This document shows positions 36,627 to 46,101 of a DNA stretch of 64,000 bases, piece after piece. The notes beneath the pieces were generated by a model. It worked only from the letters and a program-made list of their open reading frames with translations. It was not told the origin of the DNA and made no database searches. The first letter of the stretch is position 1, and every line of letters starts with the position of its first letter. The DNA is from Leptolyngbya sp. KIOST-1 (GTDB lineage Bacteria > Cyanobacteriota > Cyanobacteriia > Phormidesmidales > Phormidesmidaceae), in assembly GCF_000763385.1 (NCBI RefSeq), contig NZ_JQFA01000002.1, forward strand, positions 3,286,001 to 3,350,000, in the 5' to 3' direction. Position numbers and translations under genes: made by a program.

Positions 36627-36698
36627 GGCGGGTAAGGTAAAGGCGGTGCGGCGTGTGCCCCTATTCTAGACCTGTCGCCTGGTTCGCGCTGGGTAGAT

Positions 36699-36775
36699 GC
36701 TTAACGGTGAAGTTGTGCGGAGGCAGACAACCTTGAACTCTCACCGCTAGGCTCTGCTCCGCCCGCACCAACGTA
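36699..36775 (-). other. attC-like hairpin (right half; interrupted by the group II intron)
   Basis: Plus-strand GCTTAAC (36699-36705) matches the RYYYAAC consensus (GTTAAGC on the minus strand, the R' box). A long imperfect stem, GTTG-TGCGG-AGGCAGA (36712-36726) with TCTGC-TCCG-CC-CGCAC-CAAC (36752-36772), follows. The extra unpaired bases on one side are typical of attC extrahelical bases. The other R box would be completed by TAGCG at 40842. Reading on the minus strand, this lies directly after the nuclease gene, the place of an attC in a gene cassette. Confidence 0.55.
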
Positions 36776-37297
36776 GTGTGTACGCCCAGCATGGGCGTGA
36801 ACTAATGGGGTGAAAGTCCCCTGTGGGAGAACCAGCCATCCAAATGCTCGCAAGTCATAGGAGCCGAGAGATGGACAACCACTAGCTAAAGGCAAGGGCG
36901 TTTCCGCGAGGGAGGGTCTGGAGGAAGCCAGCGGCAAAGGTGCGAGCCGACGAACAGAAACGTCATAGAAGGCCGAGTTTCTGGGGCGAGTTGGCACAAC
37001 ACAACGAAGCCTTTTGGTTCAGGGGATACGGTAAATGACGCGGTTGCGCATCGACAGTTCACGGTCTTATCTGGGGAGGTCTGCCCTTTTGGCAGTCCTT
37101 GAGGCTAGGGGAGTCTGATTGAGGTCTGGCCGGAAACGGCCGGGTAGCCACAGAACCCTAAGGCATTGAGGACGGCCCAACGATTGGCAACAAACGTTGA
37201 AGGGGGCAGAAGTCAGCCGAGGTCATAGTAGTCAAACGCTGGCCTGTAATGGGCCAGATAGGGCGAAGGGCCGAACTTAACCAAGAAAGGAGGAGCC

Positions 37298-38082
37298 ATG
37301 ACAAACTCAGCCGTTTTGATGAACCCGAATGGGGGAGAAGCGGACTGGCGTAGACCCATGCAGCCAGCCTTAGAGACGAATTTGATGGAGCGAGTCCTCG
37401 ACTCAGAGAACCTGCACCGAGCGTGGAAGCAAGTGAAGTCCAATCAAGGTGCCCCCGGCATAGACGGGATGGTGCTGGACGACTTTGCGGCCTACGCCCG
37501 ACTTCACTGGGGAGAGATTCGCCAAACCTTACGAGATGGACGCTACCGCCCTGCTCCGGTGCGACGGGTCGTCATCCCCAAGCCAGGGGGCAAGGGAGAG
37601 CGGCTGTTGGGAGTTCCAACAGTCCTAGACCGGGTGATCCAGCAAGCCATCTCACAGGTGCTGACGCCACTGTTTGAGCCGGAGTTTTCCGAGTTCAGCT
37701 TTGGGTGTCGTCCCAACCGCAGTGCCCACGGCGCGATTAAACAGGTGAAGGCATACGTCAAGGAAGGCTATCGGGTGGTGGTGGATTTGGACTTGGAAAA
37801 GTTCTTTGACACCGTAAACCACGATGTCCTAATGGCAAGAGTCGCCCGCAAAGTGCGGGATAAGACCCTGCTAGCCTTGATAGGCCGATACCTGCGAGCC
37901 GGGGTCATGGTCGAGGGGGTAGTACAGGCCCCAGAGTGGGGGACACCGCAAGGGTCGCCCCTGTCGCCGCTGCTCGCCAACATCCTGTTGGATGACCTCG
38001 ACCAAGAGTTGGAACGCCGGGGCCACCGCTTTACCCGCTATGTGGACGATGTGGTCATTTTGGGTAAAAGCGAAAGGAAAAA
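37298..38082 (+). pseudogene. ltrA: Group II intron reverse transcriptase/maturase, 5' part
   Basis: About 261 residues of reverse transcriptase: NQGAPGIDGMVLDDF, RRVVIPKPGGKGERLLGVPTV, FEPEFSEFSFGCRPNRSAH, DLDLEKFFDTVNHDVLM, GTPQGSPLSPLLANILLDDL and the active-site box RYVDDVVIL (Y-V-D-D). At about 38080 homology ends after GKSERK and the frame runs into antisense of a glycosyltransferase gene. The missing 40 or so residues lead to the thumb domain found at 40290-40763. Confidence 0.85.
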
Positions 38083-38771
38083 AAGTCGTGCTGGATATTC
38101 CAGATCAAGATCGGCGAGAGCACCAGCAGGAGCAGCCCCAGGGCCAGGTAGAGGCGGCGATCGCGCAGCAGCGACCGCCGCGTTTTGTCGCTCACCACCA
38201 GGGCAAAAAAGCCCAGCCCCACGAAGAGCGCATTGTACTTGCACAGGCCGGCCAGGCCCAGAAATAGAGCGGCACCGTATAGGTCTCTGCCGCTCCCAGC
38301 CGGATTGGTTACTGCTTCATCCACGTAGCGCACAAACAAAAAGCTGCTGATCACCGCAAAGGTGACCAGCCAGTGGTCGTGCCAGGCCAGGCCCAGGTAC
38401 CAGAAAAACAGCGGCGATGACAGGCCCAGCAGCACCACCAGCCAGAGGCGATCGCGGGCCTGGTCGCCGTAGAGATAGCGGCAGATGCGGTAGAAAGTAA
38501 GCCCCAGTATGCCGCTGCTGATGGCGTTGGGCAGCCGCAGTACCAGAGGCGATCGGCCCAGGACCGAAAACAGCCCCTGCACCCAGGCGTGAAACGGCGG
38601 ATGGTCGTAGTAGGAAAAGCCCGGACGCTGCCCCCACAGCCAGTAGTAGGCTTCGTCGGGGTTGGGGAAAGCCGTCAGCCAAAAGCCGATTCTCAGGGCC
38701 AAAAAGCCCAGCAAAAACCAGCGTCCCCAGTGCCAGACCGGGGACTGAAAGAGAGGCCAGCGCTTACTCAT
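38083..38771 (-). pseudogene. Glycosyltransferase of the ArnT/PMT type, 5' part
   Basis: About 230 residues from the start: LLGFLALRIGFWLTAFPNPDEAYYWLWG, YYDHPPFHAWVQGLF, and several membrane helices typical of GT83/PMT_2 lipid-linked-sugar transferases. It ends after NIQHDFFSFRF, within the conserved part, where it joins the reverse-transcriptase sequence. The full-length protein would be about 500 residues. Its ATG overlaps the stop of the upstream fragment (GATGAGTAA), showing that those two segments belong together naturally. Confidence 0.75.
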
Positions 38772-39117
38772 CGGGGGACTCTAGGGCGCTGGGGTCGATG
38801 TCGTCTAGCTCGGGAATGTCGCCCAGGTCAAGGGAACTGGGGGTCTCAGCCGGTTCCATTACCTCGGCATCGAAGGGCAGAATGACCGTGGGCAGCCCCG
38901 CCCCCTGCAACCCCTGAAGAATGTGCCCTGGCGTTTCGGGAAACACCACAAACAGCGGGTGGCTTTTGTCGGTGCCGTCGCTGAGCAGGTGCTGGTACTT
39001 TTGGGGCAGCAGCCACTCGTAGCCGCGATCGATCAAAATCTGCGTGTGCCGCCAGCGCATCAGCAAATCCGAAAAATCTTCCTGGGGCCGGTGGATGTAG
39101 ACAAAGATCTCGACCCC
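38764..39117 (-). pseudogene. C-terminal fragment of an unidentified protein
   Basis: The segment encodes about 118 residues beginning [18 protein letters not shown] and ending [13 protein letters not shown], with [17 protein letters not shown] in the middle. I do not recognise the family. It ends by overlapping the start of the glycosyltransferase gene by the sequence ATGAGTAA, so in the intact genome the two are probably in one operon. At 39117 it joins an infB fragment in frame. Confidence 0.5.
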
Positions 39118-39577
39118 CAGGGTGCCGTTCTGGATCAGCAGGGTGGCCACAGGACCGCGGGCTTTGTCGAGGTTGGCCTCGATTACGGTACCGCGGGCGG
39201 GGCGATCGGGGTTGGCCTGAAGGTCTTCGACCTCGGCCACGAGAACGATCATCTCCAGCAGGCTGTCGAGGTTGTCACCCGCTAGAGCGCTGACCGGCAC
39301 CATGATGGTGTCGCCACCCCATTCCTCGGGCACCAGCCCGTGTTCCATTAGCTCCTGCTTGACGCGATCGGGGTTGGCGGTCTCCTTGTCGACCTTGTTG
39401 ATGGCGACAATCAGCGGCACCTCGGCAGCCTTGGCGTGGCTGATCGCCTCAATGGTTTGGGGTCGCACGCCGTCGTCTGCCGCCACCACCAGAATGGCGA
39501 TGTCGGTAACCCGCGTACCCCGCGCCCGCATGGCGGTAAAGGCCTCGTGACCAGGGGTATCCAGGAAGACGATCTGA
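39118..39577 (-). pseudogene. infB: Translation initiation factor IF-2, internal fragment
   Basis: About 153 residues of the GTPase domain: [15 protein letters not shown] (G3), [23 protein letters not shown] (G4), [16 protein letters not shown] (G5) and the start of domain II ([25 protein letters not shown]). The N-terminal G1 motif and everything after this point are missing. Its ends join a tpiA fragment (39577) and an unknown fragment (39117). Confidence 0.85.
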
Positions 39578-39613
39578 TGCCTTTAGAAACGGGGGTAGAC
39601 CGTCAACCCCAAA

Positions 39614-39721
39614 TTACTGAAAGTTGACAATGCGAGCAAAACTGTCGGCTTCCAGGCTGGCTCCCCCCACCAGGGCCCCGTCGATTTCGGGCTGGGCCAT
39701 CAGTTCATCGACGTTGCTGGG
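39614..39721 (-). pseudogene. tpiA: Triosephosphate isomerase, C-terminal fragment
   Basis: About 35 residues: [20 protein letters not shown], then [15 protein letters not shown] and a stop. This is the conserved end of TpiA. It joins the folE fragment at about 39720 with a four-base overlap of identical sequence (GGGC). Confidence 0.8.
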
Positions 39722-40226
39722 CTTCGACTACGACGGCGACGCCCTGGGGTTGCAGTAAACCCTGGAGGGCATCGGCGATCTGGGCGGTGAGGCGTTCTTG
39801 CACTTGCAGGCGGCGGGCGTACATTTCGCAGATGCGAGCCACCTTGGAGAGGCCGATCACCTTGCCGTTGGGGATGTAGGCCACGTGGGCACGACCCAGG
39901 ATGGGCAAAATGTGGTGTTCGCAGGAGCTAAACAGGTCGATGTCGCGTACCAGCACCATTTCATTGGTGTTTTCGTGGAAAACAGCGCCGTTGAGTAATT
40001 CATCCAGGGATTGGTTGTAGCCGGAGGTGAGGAATTTGAGGGCCTTAACCACCCGTTTGGGGGTGTCGATCAGCCCTTCGCGATCGGGGTCTTCCCCCAG
40101 GCCAATCAGCAGAGTGCGCACTGCCTGCTGCATTTCGGCATCGGAAACGCGGGCCTGGGGCTGGGTAGAAAGAGCAGCGATCGCCTGGTCGGCGGAGATG
40201 TTCTTGGAAGGAAGTTGAGCGGTCAT
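39720..40226 (-). pseudogene. folE: GTP cyclohydrolase I, 5' part
   Basis: About 169 residues of Fol[46 protein letters not shown] (zinc ligands Cys and His), [22 protein letters not shown] and [10 protein letters not shown]. The last 35-40 residues, including the third zinc ligand region (C-M-x-x-R-G), are replaced by the tpiA fragment. As written the frame adds QQRR and stops. Confidence 0.85.
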
Positions 40227-40289
40227 GGAATGAGACTCCTAATTGCGTGGAAAAACGGTAAACGGTCAGCGGTAAACGGGGTTTCAGGT

Positions 40290-40763
40290 TTCTTTACGTT
40301 CCAGGGAATCCGCATTGTTTGGTCTGAGCGAGCCTTCCAGGACCTCAAGTACCGCTTGCGGGGGTTAACCTCGCGGCGGTGGCGAGTGTCGATGGAGTAT
40401 CGGCTGAAGCGGATTAGCCTCTATCTGCGGGGTTGGATGGGCTACTTTGGAATTTCCCAATTGTACGGGCCAATTCCCGAGTTAGATGGGTGGCTGAGGC
40501 GTCGAATCCGGATGTGCTACTGGAAACAGTGGCGTAGGCCGAGAACGCGCATTGGCAACCTGCTCAAACTGGGGACACCGAGACGACACGCCTTCTCGAC
40601 GGGCTTAAGCCGGAAAGGATATTGGCGGTTGTCGCGGTCCTTAGCGACGCAGACGGGGATGACCAATGAGTGGTTAGCACAAGAGGGATTGCTCTCGATT
40701 CGCGACCTTTGGATGAACGCCCAGGGTTACGGTGAGAAGTCTATTACTTCGTCTAGCAGGTAG
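40290..40763 (+). pseudogene. ltrA: Group II intron reverse transcriptase/maturase, 3' part
   Basis: Thumb/maturase X domain: TFQGIRIVWSERAF, GLTSRRWRVSMEYRLK, LRGWMGYFGISQLYG, IRMCYWKQWRRPRTR and GLSRKGYWRLSRSLATQTG, and it ends without an HNH endonuclease, as in class C introns. It directly continues the 5' part at 37298-38082 once the inserted 2.2 kb and about 120 bp of missing sequence are allowed for. Confidence 0.85.
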
Positions 40764-40840
40764 GTTGAGAACCGCCCATTGCGGAGCCGCACGATGGGTG
40801 GTGTGGGAGGGGGGATTCGTGAGGATTCTCCCTATCCCGA

Positions 40841-41457
40841 TTAGCGTTTTCTTCCATTGAAGAGATAGCTATCTTGATCTTCAACGGAACCCCCTGTAGA
40901 TGTCTCAAGAATAGATTCTAAGAAACCTTCTCCCATTTCTAGGGATTTTTGCTTGAAATGCTCGACAATAGTCTCTGTTACAACATCAATTGAGTATCCA
41001 GTGACCTGTGCAGCAGATAAAAATGCTTCCTGATAAAGCCTCAACAACAAGCTGGCACCATGATTTGAACCAGTCAATTGATAAAACGCAGCTTGTCCTA
41101 CTAAAACTCGCACAGATGGAGCTGCTTTTTCAACACCTCTCTTTGAACGATGCCCAATGAGGGTGTTTCCTACTAGGGCGTCATAGAAAATGTCAGCGGA
41201 GTAGTGATCTGATAAAAACTGTAGTTGATCTCCTAGACGTTTTCCATCTCCACCTTTCGCAGAGCCCGTTTTACTTTTTATTTGATGAATTCTAAGACGT
41301 TCGCCTTGTTGTGTAGGAGGCTGAATTAGATCTGCACCTGGGAACGGATTAACAGAATAATCAAATGCTTCTTGGTCTTTCCCTCTTGGTTCAGGTACTC
41401 TAACATTACCTCGCATAAGCCCTAGAACATCTTCATGTAAGTGTCCCATCAACCCTT
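40841..41457 (-). pseudogene. Putative type II restriction endonuclease, 3' part
   Basis: This AT-rich frame encodes IIEGLMGHLHEDVLGLMRGN, FDYSVNPFPGADLIQP, and RLRIHQIKSKTGSAKGGDG. ADLI followed by HQIKSK fits a PD-(D/E)xK-type active site, with Gln in the place of the second acid. It continues the 5' part at 43632-44172: joining both across the IS66 element, counting the 8-bp duplication once, gives an uninterrupted 385-codon gene. The present stop uses the last base of the intron, so the original end may have been different. Confidence 0.65.
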
Positions 41458-41465
41458 CAATAATC
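41458..41465. repeat. Left target-site duplication of the IS66 element
   Basis: CAATAATC at 41458-41465 is identical to 43632-43639. Eight bases is the usual target duplication of the IS66 family. Confidence 0.85.
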
Positions 41466-41554
41466 GTAAGCGTCCCTCATCGAACTTTCTAAGCTAGAGA
41501 GAGAGGCTGACCATGAGCCTCCAGAGAGTCCTCCTGCTCGGGCTCAAATTGAGG

Positions 41555-42003
41555 AAGTAAAGATGGCGAGTAAATCGTAGAAGGGCTGCCAGTTGTCCTC
41601 GGTGGTGATGGGCTCCCAGACTGCCTCAATTTCGGGACGCAGCAGCACCGTTTGCGGGTTGGTGCCCTTGAGCAATGCGGCCACTTGCTCCATTTGCTCG
41701 GCCTTGAGGCTTTGCAAGCAGCGGTGGTAGATTTGCCGCCACGGTTCGAGTTGGGCCGCTGCCGCCGAGTCCGAGGCTTGCAGGGTGGTGCTAAATATGT
41801 CACCGGCCTGCTCACGCCAGCGGGGGGAAAACTGCTCAGTGAGGGCAAAAAAGAAGTCGTGGTAGCCCACCTGGACGGCACTGAGCAGGTCGATCGTCTG
41901 ATTGACCAGGGCGGTGGCCAGATCGGCGTCTAGCTGCTCAAATCCCAACTTCTGCAGCATGCGCTGCCGGTAGTAGGTCTCGTAGCGATCCTTGAAGGGT
42001 TCT
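41555..42003 (-). pseudogene. selO: Protein AMPylase SelO (YdiU), C-terminal fragment
   Basis: About 150 residues resembling the SelO/YdiU C-terminal region: PFKDRYETYYRQRMLQKLG, VNQTIDLLSAVQVGYHDFF, NPQTVLLRPEIEAVWEPI and DNWQPFYDLLA. The kinase-like catalytic part is missing. It lies inside the IS66 element and joins a pncB tail head-to-tail at about 42003. Confidence 0.6.
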
Positions 42004-42102
42004 CTGGAGCAGCCCGCCGCCTACCCCGTCGCCCTCTCCGATGCCCTAGCCGAGCTGACGGCGCGCACCCGTCGCGGCCCGCAGCCCCAGTCCCAGTCCT
42101 GA
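42003..42102 (+). pseudogene. pncB: Nicotinate phosphoribosyltransferase, C-terminal tail
   Basis: The last 32 codons, including LEQPAAYPVALSDALAELTAR, end with TGA at 42100-42102, two bases before the nadD ATG. PncB-nadD is a common cyanobacterial order in NAD salvage, which supports the reading; the piece itself is short. Confidence 0.5.
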
Positions 42103-42104
42103 GG

Positions 42105-42462
42105 ATGGCCGCCATGACCTCACCGGAACGTTCCACCGATCGCGCCACCGGGCTCCACGTTGCCCTGTTTGGCACCAGCGCCGACCCGCCCCATCGGGGA
42201 CACGCAGCCATTTTGGCCTGGCTGGCCACCCAGTTTGACCACGTGGCGGTGTGGACGGCCAACAACCCGTTTAAAGCCCACCAGACCGACCTGGGCGATC
42301 GCTTTCGCATGCTGGAGCTGCTGATTGACGAGCTAGACGCCCCGCCCCAGCGGGTGCAGGTGCACCCCGAACTCAGCCACCGGCGCACCGTCGTCACCCT
42401 GGAGCGGGCGCGGCAAATTTGGCCGGGGGCCAGGTTTGCGCTGGTGGTCGGGGCCGACCTGT
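42105..42462 (+). pseudogene. nadD: Nicotinate-nucleotide adenylyltransferase, 5' part
   Basis: About 119 residues: VALFGTSADPPHRGHAAIL, with the nucleotidyltransferase motif (G-T-S-A-D-P-P-H-x-G-H), AVWTANNPFKAHQTD, RFRMLELLID and ARFALVVGADLL. The remaining half is missing, and at 42462 the sequence enters the IS66 transposase gene in the opposite direction. Confidence 0.8.
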
Positions 42463-43564
42463 TAAAGCCAGCCCGCAAGGGTTTGACGAACTCGATAAAG
42501 TCGGAGCGTACCAAGGTGCCATCACGCACCCGGTGCCACCAGCGAAATAATCGCCGCTGCCGCCTCAGCAGCGCCTCGCCAATCTCACGCGAGACGCCGC
42601 TACGGTCTGCCATGGCGGTGAAGTCTCGCTTCAGATGCGCCCAGCACACCTGCCATCGGGTCACCTCAATCCACCGGTAGGCGCTGTAGCGGTCAGAGGT
42701 GACAATTCCTGAAAACTCTTCACCAATCAGGGCTTTAGCAGTCGCCTGTGACCGACTGAGCACCACCTCGAAAAAACTCACCAGCGGCGTCACCAGCACC
42801 CATAGCCAGCCTTTAGTGCGCTGGGGATTTCCCCCGTCTCGATTGCCTTGGGGGTAACTGGTTTCATCACTATGCATCACGGGTTGGCTCTGCACGTAGG
42901 CCTTGGCCTCCTCCACCGCCGGACTCACCGCGTCACTGATTTCTTGCCGCAAACGCCCGATGCCACCACGAGAGAGGCGCACCCCGAAGAGGTCGTCCAT
43001 CACCGCACACACCTGCCGATAGCTCAGCCGGTACCCCCCACTCAGCAAGGCCACCATCGCCGTCAGTCGTTCACCATAGCCCAGGGCAGAGACCCCCGAC
43101 GGCAGCTCGGCGCGGGTTACCGTGTCGCAGCACGGGCACCTCAGGCCATGCAATCGATACTCCACCACCTCGGGTTTAACCGGTGGCACTTCTATCACTT
43201 GATGGCGGTGAGGATGAGAATCGTGGCCTGATAAGCTAGCTCCACAGGCGTCGCAGGCCGGGGGAATCACCTCATGGACGGCTCGACAATCTTCGGCGGG
43301 ATATAGTTTTCGAGCTTCGCGAGGAGCAGTTTTCCCGCTCTGCTCTCGCGGGGCTTTCTTGCCTTTCCCTTTGGCTTTAACACCTTTGCCAAAGCCATCC
43401 GTTGACGGTGGTTTTGATGAATTCTGTGAATTCTGATTGACTTTCTCTTCCAACGCCATCAGCCGCTCACTCAGAACCCGCACTAACATTTGGATGCTAG
43501 CGGGGGTCGCTTCCCAGTCGGCCCTCGGAACTCGGATTCCAGCTATCTCGATCTCGTCGCTCAT
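42463..43564 (-). pseudogene. IS66-family transposase, 5' part
   Basis: About 366 residues: an N-terminal leucine-zipper-like helix, a QNSQNSSKPPSTDGFGKG box typical of IS66, a zinc-finger-like region (CDACGASLSGH ... CPCCDTVTRA) and the DDE catalytic core with HSDETSY (first Asp) and VTSDRYSAYRW (second Asp). The part with the catalytic Glu is gone; after FVKPLRAGF the frame runs through antisense of nadD. It is inactive as it stands. Confidence 0.85.
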
Positions 43565-43631
43565 CGCTTCACCTTACCGGGACTCCTAGCCCAAAATCCC
43601 TAAGCCTTCGTTAAATTCCTGGGACGGTTAC

Positions 43632-43639
43632 CAATAATC
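43632..43639. repeat. Right target-site duplication of the IS66 element
   Basis: CAATAATC, identical to 41458-41465. Confidence 0.85.
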
Positions 43640-44172
43640 ATTAAAGCTTTATGAGAAACTGTTGCTGAGATAGCACCATCAAATTCACCTTTATAAAGTA
43701 AATACTGTGTAGCGGCTAAAATAAAAGGATCTAATACATCCCCCCTATTTCGACCCACTTCAATATCAGACGCTTCTTGAGGAAAACTTTCAACAACTGT
43801 GATAATTTTATCTCGGACAAAGTTGACTGCCGAATCCGGATCAGCAAATGCCCTCAGCAGCATTGCTCTTGCGGCGAGAGATGCTGCTGTTCTCTGAACT
43901 GCCTGTGTTGGATAATCCTCCGAGTTAAGTAAATAGGTAAAAAAATCCACAAATTCTCCAAAGGATTTATCAGAGAATTCAGTGGGATCTTCCGAATCTA
44001 ATAAAGCTGGAACTTCAATTTGAATCCTTAATTGTTCTAAGACTGTTCTTATGTAATTTCCTGCGCTAGTAAACACAGACCCAAAAGACTCATCTTGAGC
44101 TTCTAAAATTGCATTCTTAAAAACAGGCGTAAGATTATGAACAGGGCTAGTGTCTGGAAAAAATTTAACCAT
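43632..44172 (-). pseudogene. Putative type II restriction endonuclease, 5' part
   Basis: The first 180 residues, beginning MVKFFPDTSPVHNLTPVF, are soluble and helix-rich. No catalytic motif is seen here; it is in the 3' part (40841-41457). The frame continues seven residues into the IS66 end. The ATG lies inside the 3' end of the methyltransferase gene (8-bp overlap), typical of a restriction-modification operon. AT-rich, in contrast to the genome. Confidence 0.65.
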
Positions 44173-45424
44173 GTGTCAAGTTCAACGGCAGTTGTTGATA
44201 CTCTGTTTTTTTTCTGTTGTTCTTAGCGTAGGATCTGAGCTTCTGTAATGACGTCTCAGTCATTACAGTTAAATCGTTCTTGGTAGGTTCATACTTTGGT
44301 TCTCCTTTCGAAACTGTATCTAATACCTTTTCCCCTAAAGCTTTTCCAAGAAGGACAGGTACAGCATTACCTATTTGCTGATACTGTTGATTCATTGAGC
44401 CTGATATGAACCAATCATCAGGAAATCCCTGAATCCTCATATATTCCTTGACTGACAGGGGACGAATCTTTTCAGGATGACATAGAGCTGTTCCTTTACG
44501 GTTGGCTTTTGTCGTTAGAGTTGGTGCGGGAAAATCCCACGATAGACGTCTCATGAACCCCGTTTTTCCACCTCCAGAGTGGAAAGATTGACCAAGAGCC
44601 TTTTTCTGCTCTTCAAGTGTGAGATCTCTCCAATTTCCACCAGGTGGCACTTTACGGAATAAGTTAGCAACGCTATCGGTATAAATAGAGTGTGATCCTG
44701 GATTATCGACTAAATCACCAATGGCTTCTCGTAGAGTAATGTGAGGTAAGGGAGCAAATTCGCCATGTGTAGGTTTTGGTAGACCGCATGCTCCTACATC
44801 TCTAAAACCAAGCATGCAAAATCGAATTCTTTTTTGTGGTGTTCCATAATCAGCTGCGTTAAGAATACCAAAAGTCAGTGAATACCGTAGGGAATGTAGC
44901 TCATCCAAAAGATATCTAAAAGCACTTCCTGACAATTCAGCTTCCTCTAGCTGAGCATTTCCGTCATCACTATGCTTGTTAAAATTACTACTATAACTTG
45001 CTAAATTCCACTGTTTTCCAGGTCTTAAGTTGATTGGCCGATGCTTTAATGCAGAAGTCAACAGGTTGCCTACATTTTCAAAAATAAAAGCTTGAGGTTT
45101 TAGTTGTTTGACAAACTTAAAATACTCGAAAATAAGATTTCCTCTAGGATCGCTTAAACCGCCTCTATTGCCACCACTAGAAAAGCTTTGGCAAGGTGGT
45201 CCACCAACGACGATAAAGGAAGAAGTTAGATTCAGGTCCTCAGCTACCGCCTGAGGATCGAGTTTGGAAATAGAATCTTGATAGATTCTGATATTTGGTC
45301 GGTTGGCCCTTATGGTTTCGCAACACCATTTATCTACTTCACAACATGCGGCAATTTCAATGCCGCAAGCCTCCAAACCAATATCAAGGCCCATTGCTCC
45401 GGAAAATAGAGATAACGCTTTCAC
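44165..45424 (-). CDS. DNA (cytosine-5) methyltransferase
   Basis: A 419-residue C5 methyltransferase. Motif I is LFSGAMGLDIGLEA, motif IV (catalytic Cys) VVGGPPCQSFSS, motif VI FENVGNLL, motif VIII YGTPQKRIRFCMLGF, and motif X GNAVPVLLGKALGE. The variable region between VIII and IX carries target recognition, so the recognised sequence cannot be read. It overlaps the putative cognate nuclease by 8 bp. It appears intact although the nuclease is disrupted, leaving an active orphan methylase. GC content is well below that of the rest of the window. Confidence 0.9.
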   Translation of the reverse strand: MKALSLFSGAMGLDIGLEACGIEIAACCEVDKWCCETIRANRPNIRIYQDSISKLDPQAVAEDLNLTSSFIVVGGPPCQSFSSGGNRGGLSDPRGNLIFEYFKFVKQLKPQAFIFENVGNLLTSALKHRPINLRPGKQWNLASYSSNFNKHSDDGNAQLEEAELSGSAFRYLLDELHSLRYSLTFGILNAADYGTPQKRIRFCMLGFRDVGACGLPKPTHGEFAPLPHITLREAIGDLVDNPGSHSIYTDSVANLFRKVPPGGNWRDLTLEEQKKALGQSFHSGGGKTGFMRRLSWDFPAPTLTTKANRKGTALCHPEKIRPLSVKEYMRIQGFPDDWFISGSMNQQYQQIGNAVPVLLGKALGEKVLDTVSKGEPKYEPTKNDLTVMTETSLQKLRSYAKNNRKKTEYQQLPLNLTHG

Positions 45425-45653
45425 AGAAATTGAAATTTTTTATAGGACCGCATGAGAATTATACAGTGTTGTGTAAGACCCATATCGTCTATTGAAGGGT
45501 ACGAGAAGTCTGAGAAAGAGATGAAATCATAGGATCCTCTTCTAGAGTCTTCATTTTTTCATCAACATGCCATGAGAGGCGGCGGATAGACAGTGAGTCG
45601 TAAGCAATAAGAACGCTAACTTGTGTTTAGCCTGCATTTTGTCTCTGCACTCT
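45425..45653. other. AT-rich leader of the restriction-modification cassette
   Basis: I see no gene in these 229 bp. GCTAAC (45615-45620, minus GTTAGC) and TTTAGC (45627) form a short inverted repeat. The methyltransferase promoter should lie here; no regulator (C-protein) gene is present. Confidence 0.4.
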
Positions 45654-45725
45654 GTATAACACCCCTGCTTAGGGCGATTAGGCGGACCCTAAGTTGAGTA
45701 TCACCTCCAGGAGGGGGCGTTATGC
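45654..45725. other. attC-like recombination site
   Basis: GTATAAC (45654-45660) and GTTATGC (45719-45725) are complementary except one base, and fit the RYYYAAC / GTTRRRY R-box pattern with one mismatch each. ACCCC and GGGGG continue the stem; TTAGGG (about 45669) and CCCTAA (about 45687) form an inner arm. Length 72 bp is within the attC range. It lies between the methyltransferase gene and an integron integrase remnant, as a cassette-boundary site should. Confidence 0.5.
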
Positions 45726-45905
45726 TGAAAAAAGTCGTCATATCTCCCCAAAATGGGATGTTATGCAGATTTTTGTCCAGCTATCTCCCCCAAATCGGGT
45801 GTTATACAGATCTTTGTCTTGATAAATACCTCGTTGGGGGTGTTATGCCGATCTTGCTCCGCATAGTAGACCTTCTGTAGGGTGTTATGCCGACAGCTTC
45901 AGCAA
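45699..45905. repeat. Five tandem 41-42 bp repeats, each with GTTAT(G/A)C
   Basis: GTTATGC or GTTATAC begins at 45719, 45760, 45801, 45842 and 45884, so the period is 41, 41, 41 and 42. The best copies (45741 and 45782) begin TATCTCCCC, have an imperfect C-run / G-run palindrome, then GTTAT(G/A)C followed by AGATYTTTGTC. The flanking copies have drifted. The last copy runs into the integrase remnant. Confidence 0.8.
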
Positions 45906-46024
45906 ATCTTTATGGCTACAAGGATGGGAAGACGACGATGATCTATACCCATGTGCTCAACCGTGGAGGGCGGGGTGTCAGGAGTCCGTTAGATATTGGT
46001 CAGGCAATACGGTTGAACTTGTAG
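45887..46024 (+). pseudogene. intI: Integron integrase (IntI), C-terminal remnant
   Basis: The frame beginning [15 protein letters not shown] continues [20 protein letters not shown] and ends [17 protein letters not shown] contains the invariant tyrosine of tyrosine recombinases, and [16 protein letters not shown] is distinctive for integron integrases (IntI1 has THVLKVGGAGVRSPLD). Everything N-terminal of the last 40 residues is lost. It is divergent from the restriction-modification genes, as intI is from its cassettes. Confidence 0.8.
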
Positions 46025-46066
46025 CCTACTTCTGGCAGATTAAGACTGCGGGGAATGATTCTGGGC

Positions 46067-46101
46067 GGGGAAAAGAGGAGTTCGCACCTCCTCAAATCCC
46101 C
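46067..46101. terminator. Hairpin after the integrase remnant
   Basis: GGGG-AAAA-GAGGAG and CTCCTC-AAAT-CCCC pair around a short loop (TTCGCAC). It lies 40 bp after the intI stop. There is no T-tract. Confidence 0.4.

Follow-up and report, generated by a model that had tools for sequence, protein, structure and literature searches.

The question raised by this locus is what kind of hairpin a group II intron has taken as its target. The window, that is, the whole stretch of 64,000 nt that was analysed (G000:C2:3286001-3350000), belongs to contig C2 of a genome of 6.32 Mb in 13 contigs, and our comparisons used 26 genomes of the genus, which was taken as Nodosilinea on the basis of its relatives, and 63 genomes of the order. 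We assign a probability of about 95% to the reading that the element is a group IIC-attC intron and that its target is part of a degraded chromosomal integron; the results described below support insertion into an integron attC site, in its folded bottom strand. The original prediction, which was a class C group II intron in an attC-like hairpin, has been borne out by the agreement among an attC model, the empty sites and the class of the reverse transcriptase (RT). Coordinates of the features are collected in Table 1.

Table 1. Features of the intron locus and positions of the other intron copies (window coordinates unless prefixed with C2).
Feature	Position	Strand	Remark
attC bottom strand 5' of intron	36699..36779	+	attC model and uninterrupted copies in the genus
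Parts of the attC upstream half	R box GCTTAAC 36699-36705; L stem arms; IBS1 GTGT 36776-36779	+	
Group IIC-attC intron as assembled	36780..40841	+	ends set by comparing empty with filled sites
Intron sequence proper	36780-38063 and 40293-40841	+	without patchwork
Ribozyme domains by Rfam	36900..37271	+	
EBS1 (ACAA)	36996..36999	+	complement of IBS1 TTGT; window exon GTGT pairs 3/4
RT/maturase gene, 5' part	37298..38063	+	to just after YVDD
Patchwork of four host pieces	38064..40292	+	2229 nt; probable assembly artefact
RT/maturase gene, 3' part	40293..40763	+	
Domains V and VI	40770..40841	+	RF00029, 38.3 bits
3' exon TAGCG	40842..40846	+	second half of R'' box GT/TAGCG
203-aa gene	40841..41452	-	no Pfam/NCBIfam family at E 0.001; antisense to intron
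IS66-type insertion	41464..43635	-	transposase ORF 41930-43564; PF03050 95.5 bits; repeat copies
190-aa gene	43600..44172	-	no Pfam/NCBIfam family at E 0.001
C5 cytosine DNA methyltransferase gene	44165..45424	-	PF00145 216.5 bits, TIGR00675 187 bits
attI-like core GTTAGCG	45614..45620	-	identical to rebuilt R'' box
Deleted intI	45721..46072	+	upstream region fused to last intI codons, ~940 bp missing
Intron copy c2	C2:281450-283896	-	
Intron copy c3	C2:3252438-3256189	+	near intI
Intron copy c4	C2:747466-749927	+	
Intron copy c5	C2:3008755-3009766	-	

The ribozyme was recognised in the window by the Rfam models RF02001 (36900-37065, 129.7 bits) and RF01998 (37176-37271, 53.4 bits), and the RF00029 score of domains V and VI is just below the gathering score of 40. 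In the RF00029 alignment, domain V of this intron has CGC aligned to AGC as in class IIC, for which CGC is given as a mark in the consulted part of PMC7923331. The 5' exon (...GTAGTGT) ends at 36779, the intron opens with GTACGCCC at 36780, and the 3' exon starts at 40842. The opening GTACGCCC is nearly constant among copies, and the bases directly 5' of it vary (GTGT, TTGT, GGGT and others). The assignment of 36780-40841 to the intron and of GT/TAGCG to the R'' box (the slash marks the junction) was made because the junction is given by empty and filled sites and by a class 1 integron control, in which the empty site ...TAGCTTTGT/TAACCC (L128) is found filled as ...TAGCTTTGT/GTACGCCC ... CCCGAT/TAACCC (L115). 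Intron starts at 36776 and 36778 were ruled out by the same evidence; the former, proposed originally with GTGTG as the first bases, lies 4 nt too early and takes in bases that vary between copies. The 3' junction proposed at 40842 was right, and the second R box, expected as GTA-TAGCG, is rebuilt as GTTAGCG. The stop codon of the antisense 203-aa gene falls in this box, being carried by 40842-40846 plus the last intron base.

The target was examined with a covariance model made from 30 uninterrupted attC sites, none of which came from the window. In a search of 556 kb the model matched 36699-36785 with 78.5 bits (E 4.2e-20); 11 matches had E < 1e-12, five of which were training sites, and the next match had an E of 0.096. 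In the whole genome, where 150 of 2132 first-look candidates were scored, 17 sites were found, of which five are occupied by the intron copies and 12 have no intron (five of these 12 being training sites). Half of the intron-free sites (6/12) form an array at C2:1011020-1019656 (L130), with small genes between the six sites; no TIGR02249 match was listed nearby. An earlier regular-expression scan for attC was uninformative (2 real versus 1 shuffled match) because it required near-full complementarity of R' and R'', and the covariance model was used instead.

When the 30 sites were aligned with the joined window site, a 15-pair structure was formed in 96.8% of cells, compared with 81.5% for shuffled alignments; double-sided changes affected 51 cells against 12.0, a number reached in 0 of 500 shuffles. 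Such scores are favoured by the kinship of the aligned sites. The covariation score was reached by none of 500 shuffles, nine of the 15 pairs were changed on both sides (4/500 shuffles reach nine), and sliding the partner columns by 1–3 destroyed the covariation structure. All nine double-changed pairs belong to the L stem; changes in the R stem are confined to one side, and what backs it in this alignment is conservation and not covariation. The joined flanks align to a conserved, covarying attC structure; the joined site alone folded no better than shuffles, and single-sequence folding was not significant (z = 0.03 for 36690-36775 and -0.07 for the joined site). Likewise, the perfect RYYYAAC (GCTTAAC) is present at 36699-36705 as predicted, and this 7-base motif alone is frequent by chance; the hairpin is real, but it is not a free-standing stem-loop of about 60 nt, since the actual site has 86 nt and its outer R stem needs the 3' exon. 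The sites found have the R boxes, L boxes and covarying stem by which attC, and with it an integron, is recognised; integrons and attC sites of cyanobacteria were already known, as stated in the consulted parts of PMC8352920 and PMC9668308.

Relatives supplied the empty sites. All nine uninterrupted loci carry the hairpin without the intron, for example as ...CCGCACCAACGCAGTGT/TAGGC, so the empty sites found are attC sites and none is a plain terminator; T directly follows the junction in seven of the nine ((G or T)TGT/T), and the other two read GTG/CTAGG. A query of the hairpin plus its upstream flank had matches in 24 of the 26 genomes of the genus (two match the flank only), matches spanning both hairpin arms were obtained in 19 of the 26, and the 5' ribozyme was matched in 19 of the 63 genomes of the order, in seven of 14 genera. 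A filled/empty pair was also found within the genome itself: the 78-nt attC of copy c5 and 361 nt of its 3' flank are present elsewhere without the intron at 100% identity, this intron-free partner bordering suspect assembly.

We examined 34 intron 5' ends, namely the five copies of this genome and 29 others, at least four further listed 5' ends having been left out. A match to the attC model (E up to 0.003) ends at the junction in 28 of them, and no match to it was obtained at the junction in six (L171, L172, L173, L176, L181, L185); further intron junctions without a match are those of L116, L117, L149, L113, L086 and L089. The four bases 5' of the intron are TTGT in 13 cases, GTGT in 12, ATGT in four and others in five, that is, NTGT in 29 of 34; the window junction reads GTGT/T and that of c5 TTGT/T. 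According to the consulted part of PMC7923331, IIC-attC introns insert at TTGT/T in the R'' box on the bottom strand of attC, in the orientation opposite to that of the cassettes, and are reported to be able to use other hairpins as well. The copy L176 (G046:C1, ~5108994), which comes after a long hairpin of another kind than attC and has TTGT at its junction, fits this reported use.

Short introns without an RT gene were also noticed (L055, L057, L062, L175, L176, L178). They combine 483–562 nt of the 5' part with the final 73 nt, the two being separated by a spacer of ~80–160 nt; five of the six are at attC-model matches, and one source genome is in three contigs. Such introns would depend on an RT supplied in trans.

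An integron integrase gene is located ~27 kb left of the window (C2:3257947-3258882; TIGR02249 464.8 bits, cut-off 265), as a 308-aa ORF whose match crosses one TGA near the end; a partial TIGR02249 match is present at C2:3001574-3002179, and matches above the cut-off were found in 13 of the 26 genomes of the genus. The intI of the window itself is deleted. Its upstream region and last codons are 75% and 89% identical, respectively, to those of the other integron, and its C-terminal remnant (45905-45994) has a TIGR02249 score of 33.5 bits, below the cut-off. Compared with the GTTRRRY core of attI, each intI has a candidate attI-like core with tentative boundaries in its vicinity, GTTAGCG for the deleted gene and GTTAGAC for the other, and the former is taken only as supporting because this 7-mer occurs five times in the window (both strands). 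Read from right to left, the order is deleted intI, GTTAGCG core, methyltransferase as the first gene after the core, 190-aa gene, IS66-type element, 203-aa gene, and attC with the intron. The genes at 40841-45424 are on the minus strand and the intron is on the plus strand, opposite to the cassette genes. The 190-aa and 203-aa genes may be one gene split by the IS66-type element, perhaps a partner nuclease.

DNA searches of the whole genome have found five copies of the intron; each is on contig C2, and their alignable parts are nearly identical. A partial match of 73 nt at 83% identity on contig C4 was left out of this count. The 5' flanks of the five copies are unlike in sequence and have a common layout, AAC core, spacer, arm, loop, complementary arm and intron. 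The rebuilt R boxes are imperfect: GTTAGCG of the window ends in G, and c4 and c2 have GTTCTTC and GTTATGC. Because some attC-model sites are solitary, e.g., G000:C2:2103397, the hairpin might be considered a non-integron repeat (e.g., REP-like) that merely resembles attC and to which the intron family has adapted. We regard this as very unlikely: six sites form the array mentioned above, one interrupted copy is near intI, the rebuilt R'' box equals the attI-like core, and the attC model matches just behind cassette genes in three of five class 1 integron plasmid loci (L114-L116), with no match behind the cassette genes in L117 and L149.

Regarding the RT, the gene in the window is broken, as is every RT copy in this assembly, and an intact relative of 454 aa from the same genus (L054:136-1500, genome G016) was available, whose RT is 100% identical over 454 aa to that of Nodosilinea sp. 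LEGE 07088. Compared with solved structures, it scored 468.7 bits with GsI-IIC, 352 with 7uim, 132.7 with LtrA and 98 with TeI4h, and by these sequence scores it is a class C RT; in Pfam it has RVT_1 and GIIM only, the endonuclease domain being absent. The best plasmid relatives, at 51–54% identity, belong to class 1 integrons in all four cases examined (P. putida pVIM_Pse-KSS14, E. hormaechei pRIVM_C010068_1, C. freundii pCf53, K. pneumoniae pIMP1572). In each of these the RT is oriented against the resistance cassettes and intI1 lies in the same stretch, and a fifth one examined, at 48%, is likewise in a class 1 integron of the same kind. A further relative (67% identity to the cyanobacterial RT) was noted on a plasmid of Candidatus Methylocalor cossyra (OZ026885.1, L113), where the RT is annotated as two reading frames and the junction reads TTGT/GTACGCCC.

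An initial RT tree of 30 rows with distant outgroups had long branches and weak deep forks, and it was replaced by a class-C tree of 23 rows, from which L098, L100, L113 and L151-L154 had been dropped. Outside both trees were L084, L102 and L104 (open frames < 330 aa), the partial matches L095, L099, L101, L103 and L106-L112, and L080, which has the same RT as L054. Five cyanobacterial, five class 1 integron, the Verrucomicrobia and the Rhodopirellula rows make up one side of a 100/99 branch. The targets of the last two are only candidate attC sites, that of the Verrucomicrobia row being attC-like by eye with no match to the attC model, and the L083 record lacks the 5' flank. In the comparison with the IIC-attC phylogeny, the intact relative is of class C and groups with the RTs of class 1 integron introns, as the original prediction would have it.

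The grouping bears on a more conventional reading, in which the element is an ordinary group IIC intron at a transcription terminator hairpin and the RYYYAAC is coincidental. Most IIC introns use terminators according to the consulted part of PMC4424553, the hairpin is downstream of the antisense gene, and the related site L176 follows a non-attC hairpin. This reading nevertheless has an even smaller chance of being correct than the repeat just discussed: the target is one of a dispersed set of ~86-nt elements, seen uninterrupted in relatives, whose R boxes are conserved and whose stem covaries, 29 of 34 5' exons end in NTGT and not in a T run, the RT is in a clade with class 1 integron introns, and an integron integrase gene is present. 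An attC target of an integron remains the preferred reading.

The middle of the intron needs a separate explanation. The patchwork replaces ~129 nt of the RT gene, its pieces are 99–100% identical to C2:3013757-3014812, 3020231-3020697, 3027402-3027550 and 757427-757999, and the joins overlap by 0–6 nt. The middles of all five copies show a mosaic, a deletion or a repeat; c5 jumps after ~103 nt. Other repeats of the assembly, the IS66-type element included, keep at least ~100 bp at their ends and have middles made of near-identical pieces from elsewhere, the source places of filler pieces being often 4–10 kb apart. Because of this shared pattern we read the patchwork as wrong gap filling, and 38064-40292 is probably an assembly artefact. 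On the same ground, the idea that the intron captured host genes was not adopted. We also noticed that c3 restarts after 104 nt and contains seven or eight head-to-tail copies of a 350-bp unit from the RT gene (L010:7321-10091; C2:3253321-3256091), likely from the same assembly problem, and that the same pattern occurs at C2:3002180-3006908, 743394-745214, 3435138-3436710 and 264486-266677.

An assembly artefact extending over the complete intron and both its junctions, which the disturbed middles of all five copies and the like treatment of other repeats might suggest, is the least probable reading of all, since the same junctions and full-length introns are found in other assemblies (L054/L080, L081, L082, L085). 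The intron junctions and flanks are independent of the patchwork. It is also improbable, though somewhat less remote, that the patchwork is real, the IIC-attC RT having jumped between the intron RNA and host templates and carried gene pieces into attC; if this were true, the patchwork would show an intermediate step in the formation of gene cassettes, a process in which IIC-attC introns have been proposed to take part.

For the IIC-attC reading that we prefer, a candidate for recognition of the exon was found within the ribozyme. A fixed place in domain I reads ACAA, the complement of TTGT, in 16 of 17 rows for which the motif could be located, and L085 has ACTA in the intron together with TAGT in the exon; no such motif was found in L113, L149 and L089, and some given loci gave no match at all. 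We assign ACAA to EBS1 because of this co-change in L085 and because its place is presumably that of EBS1 in the O. iheyensis intron. On the model of experimentally studied relatives, the intron RNA and the RT/maturase would recognise the single-stranded, folded bottom strand of attC, whose stem would stand in for IBS2, and EBS1 (ACAA) would pair with IBS1 (TTGT; GTGT in the window). Reverse splicing would then take place between GT and TRRRY of the R'' box, followed by copying into DNA.

The window intron is a cyanobacterial representative of the already known IIC-attC introns, which have been described above all from the antibiotic-resistance integrons of pathogenic bacteria. With the introns of class 1 integrons (S.ma.I2 type), whose RTs are the 51–54% identical ones described above, it shares the 5' end GTACGCCC, EBS1 ACAA, the TTGT junction, for which an empty-site check was made in one case (L115/L128), and the position antisense to cassettes in an integron with an integrase gene, there intI1. 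It differs from them in having a cyanobacterial host, a chromosomal and partly degraded integron with dispersed attC sites, and an RT of a separate cyanobacterial clade. Terminator-using IIC introns (GsI-IIC and the examples of E. faecium and Obscuribacter) have in common with it a class C RT and an IIC-type intron, but in these a T run comes after the target hairpin (L094, L150), and their RTs are across the 100/99 branch. UHB.F1 from a soda-lake metagenome, as described in the consulted part of PMC7923331, is alike in being a non-clinical IIC-attC intron antisense in a cassette array; it is a truncated single case, whereas the cyanobacterial family is multi-copy, occurs in multiple genera and has empty sites. 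No earlier report of an IIC-attC intron in cyanobacteria was found in the titles and abstract openings searched.

The present finding extends IIC-attC introns to an order of cyanobacteria and means that the introns of clinical integrons are related to environmental ones that obey an identical target rule. Numerous sites, filled as well as empty, together with RT-less copies and the natural co-change of EBS1 and IBS1, constitute a ready comparative set, which bears on how a mobile intron came to read the folded DNA that is used by the integron integrase.
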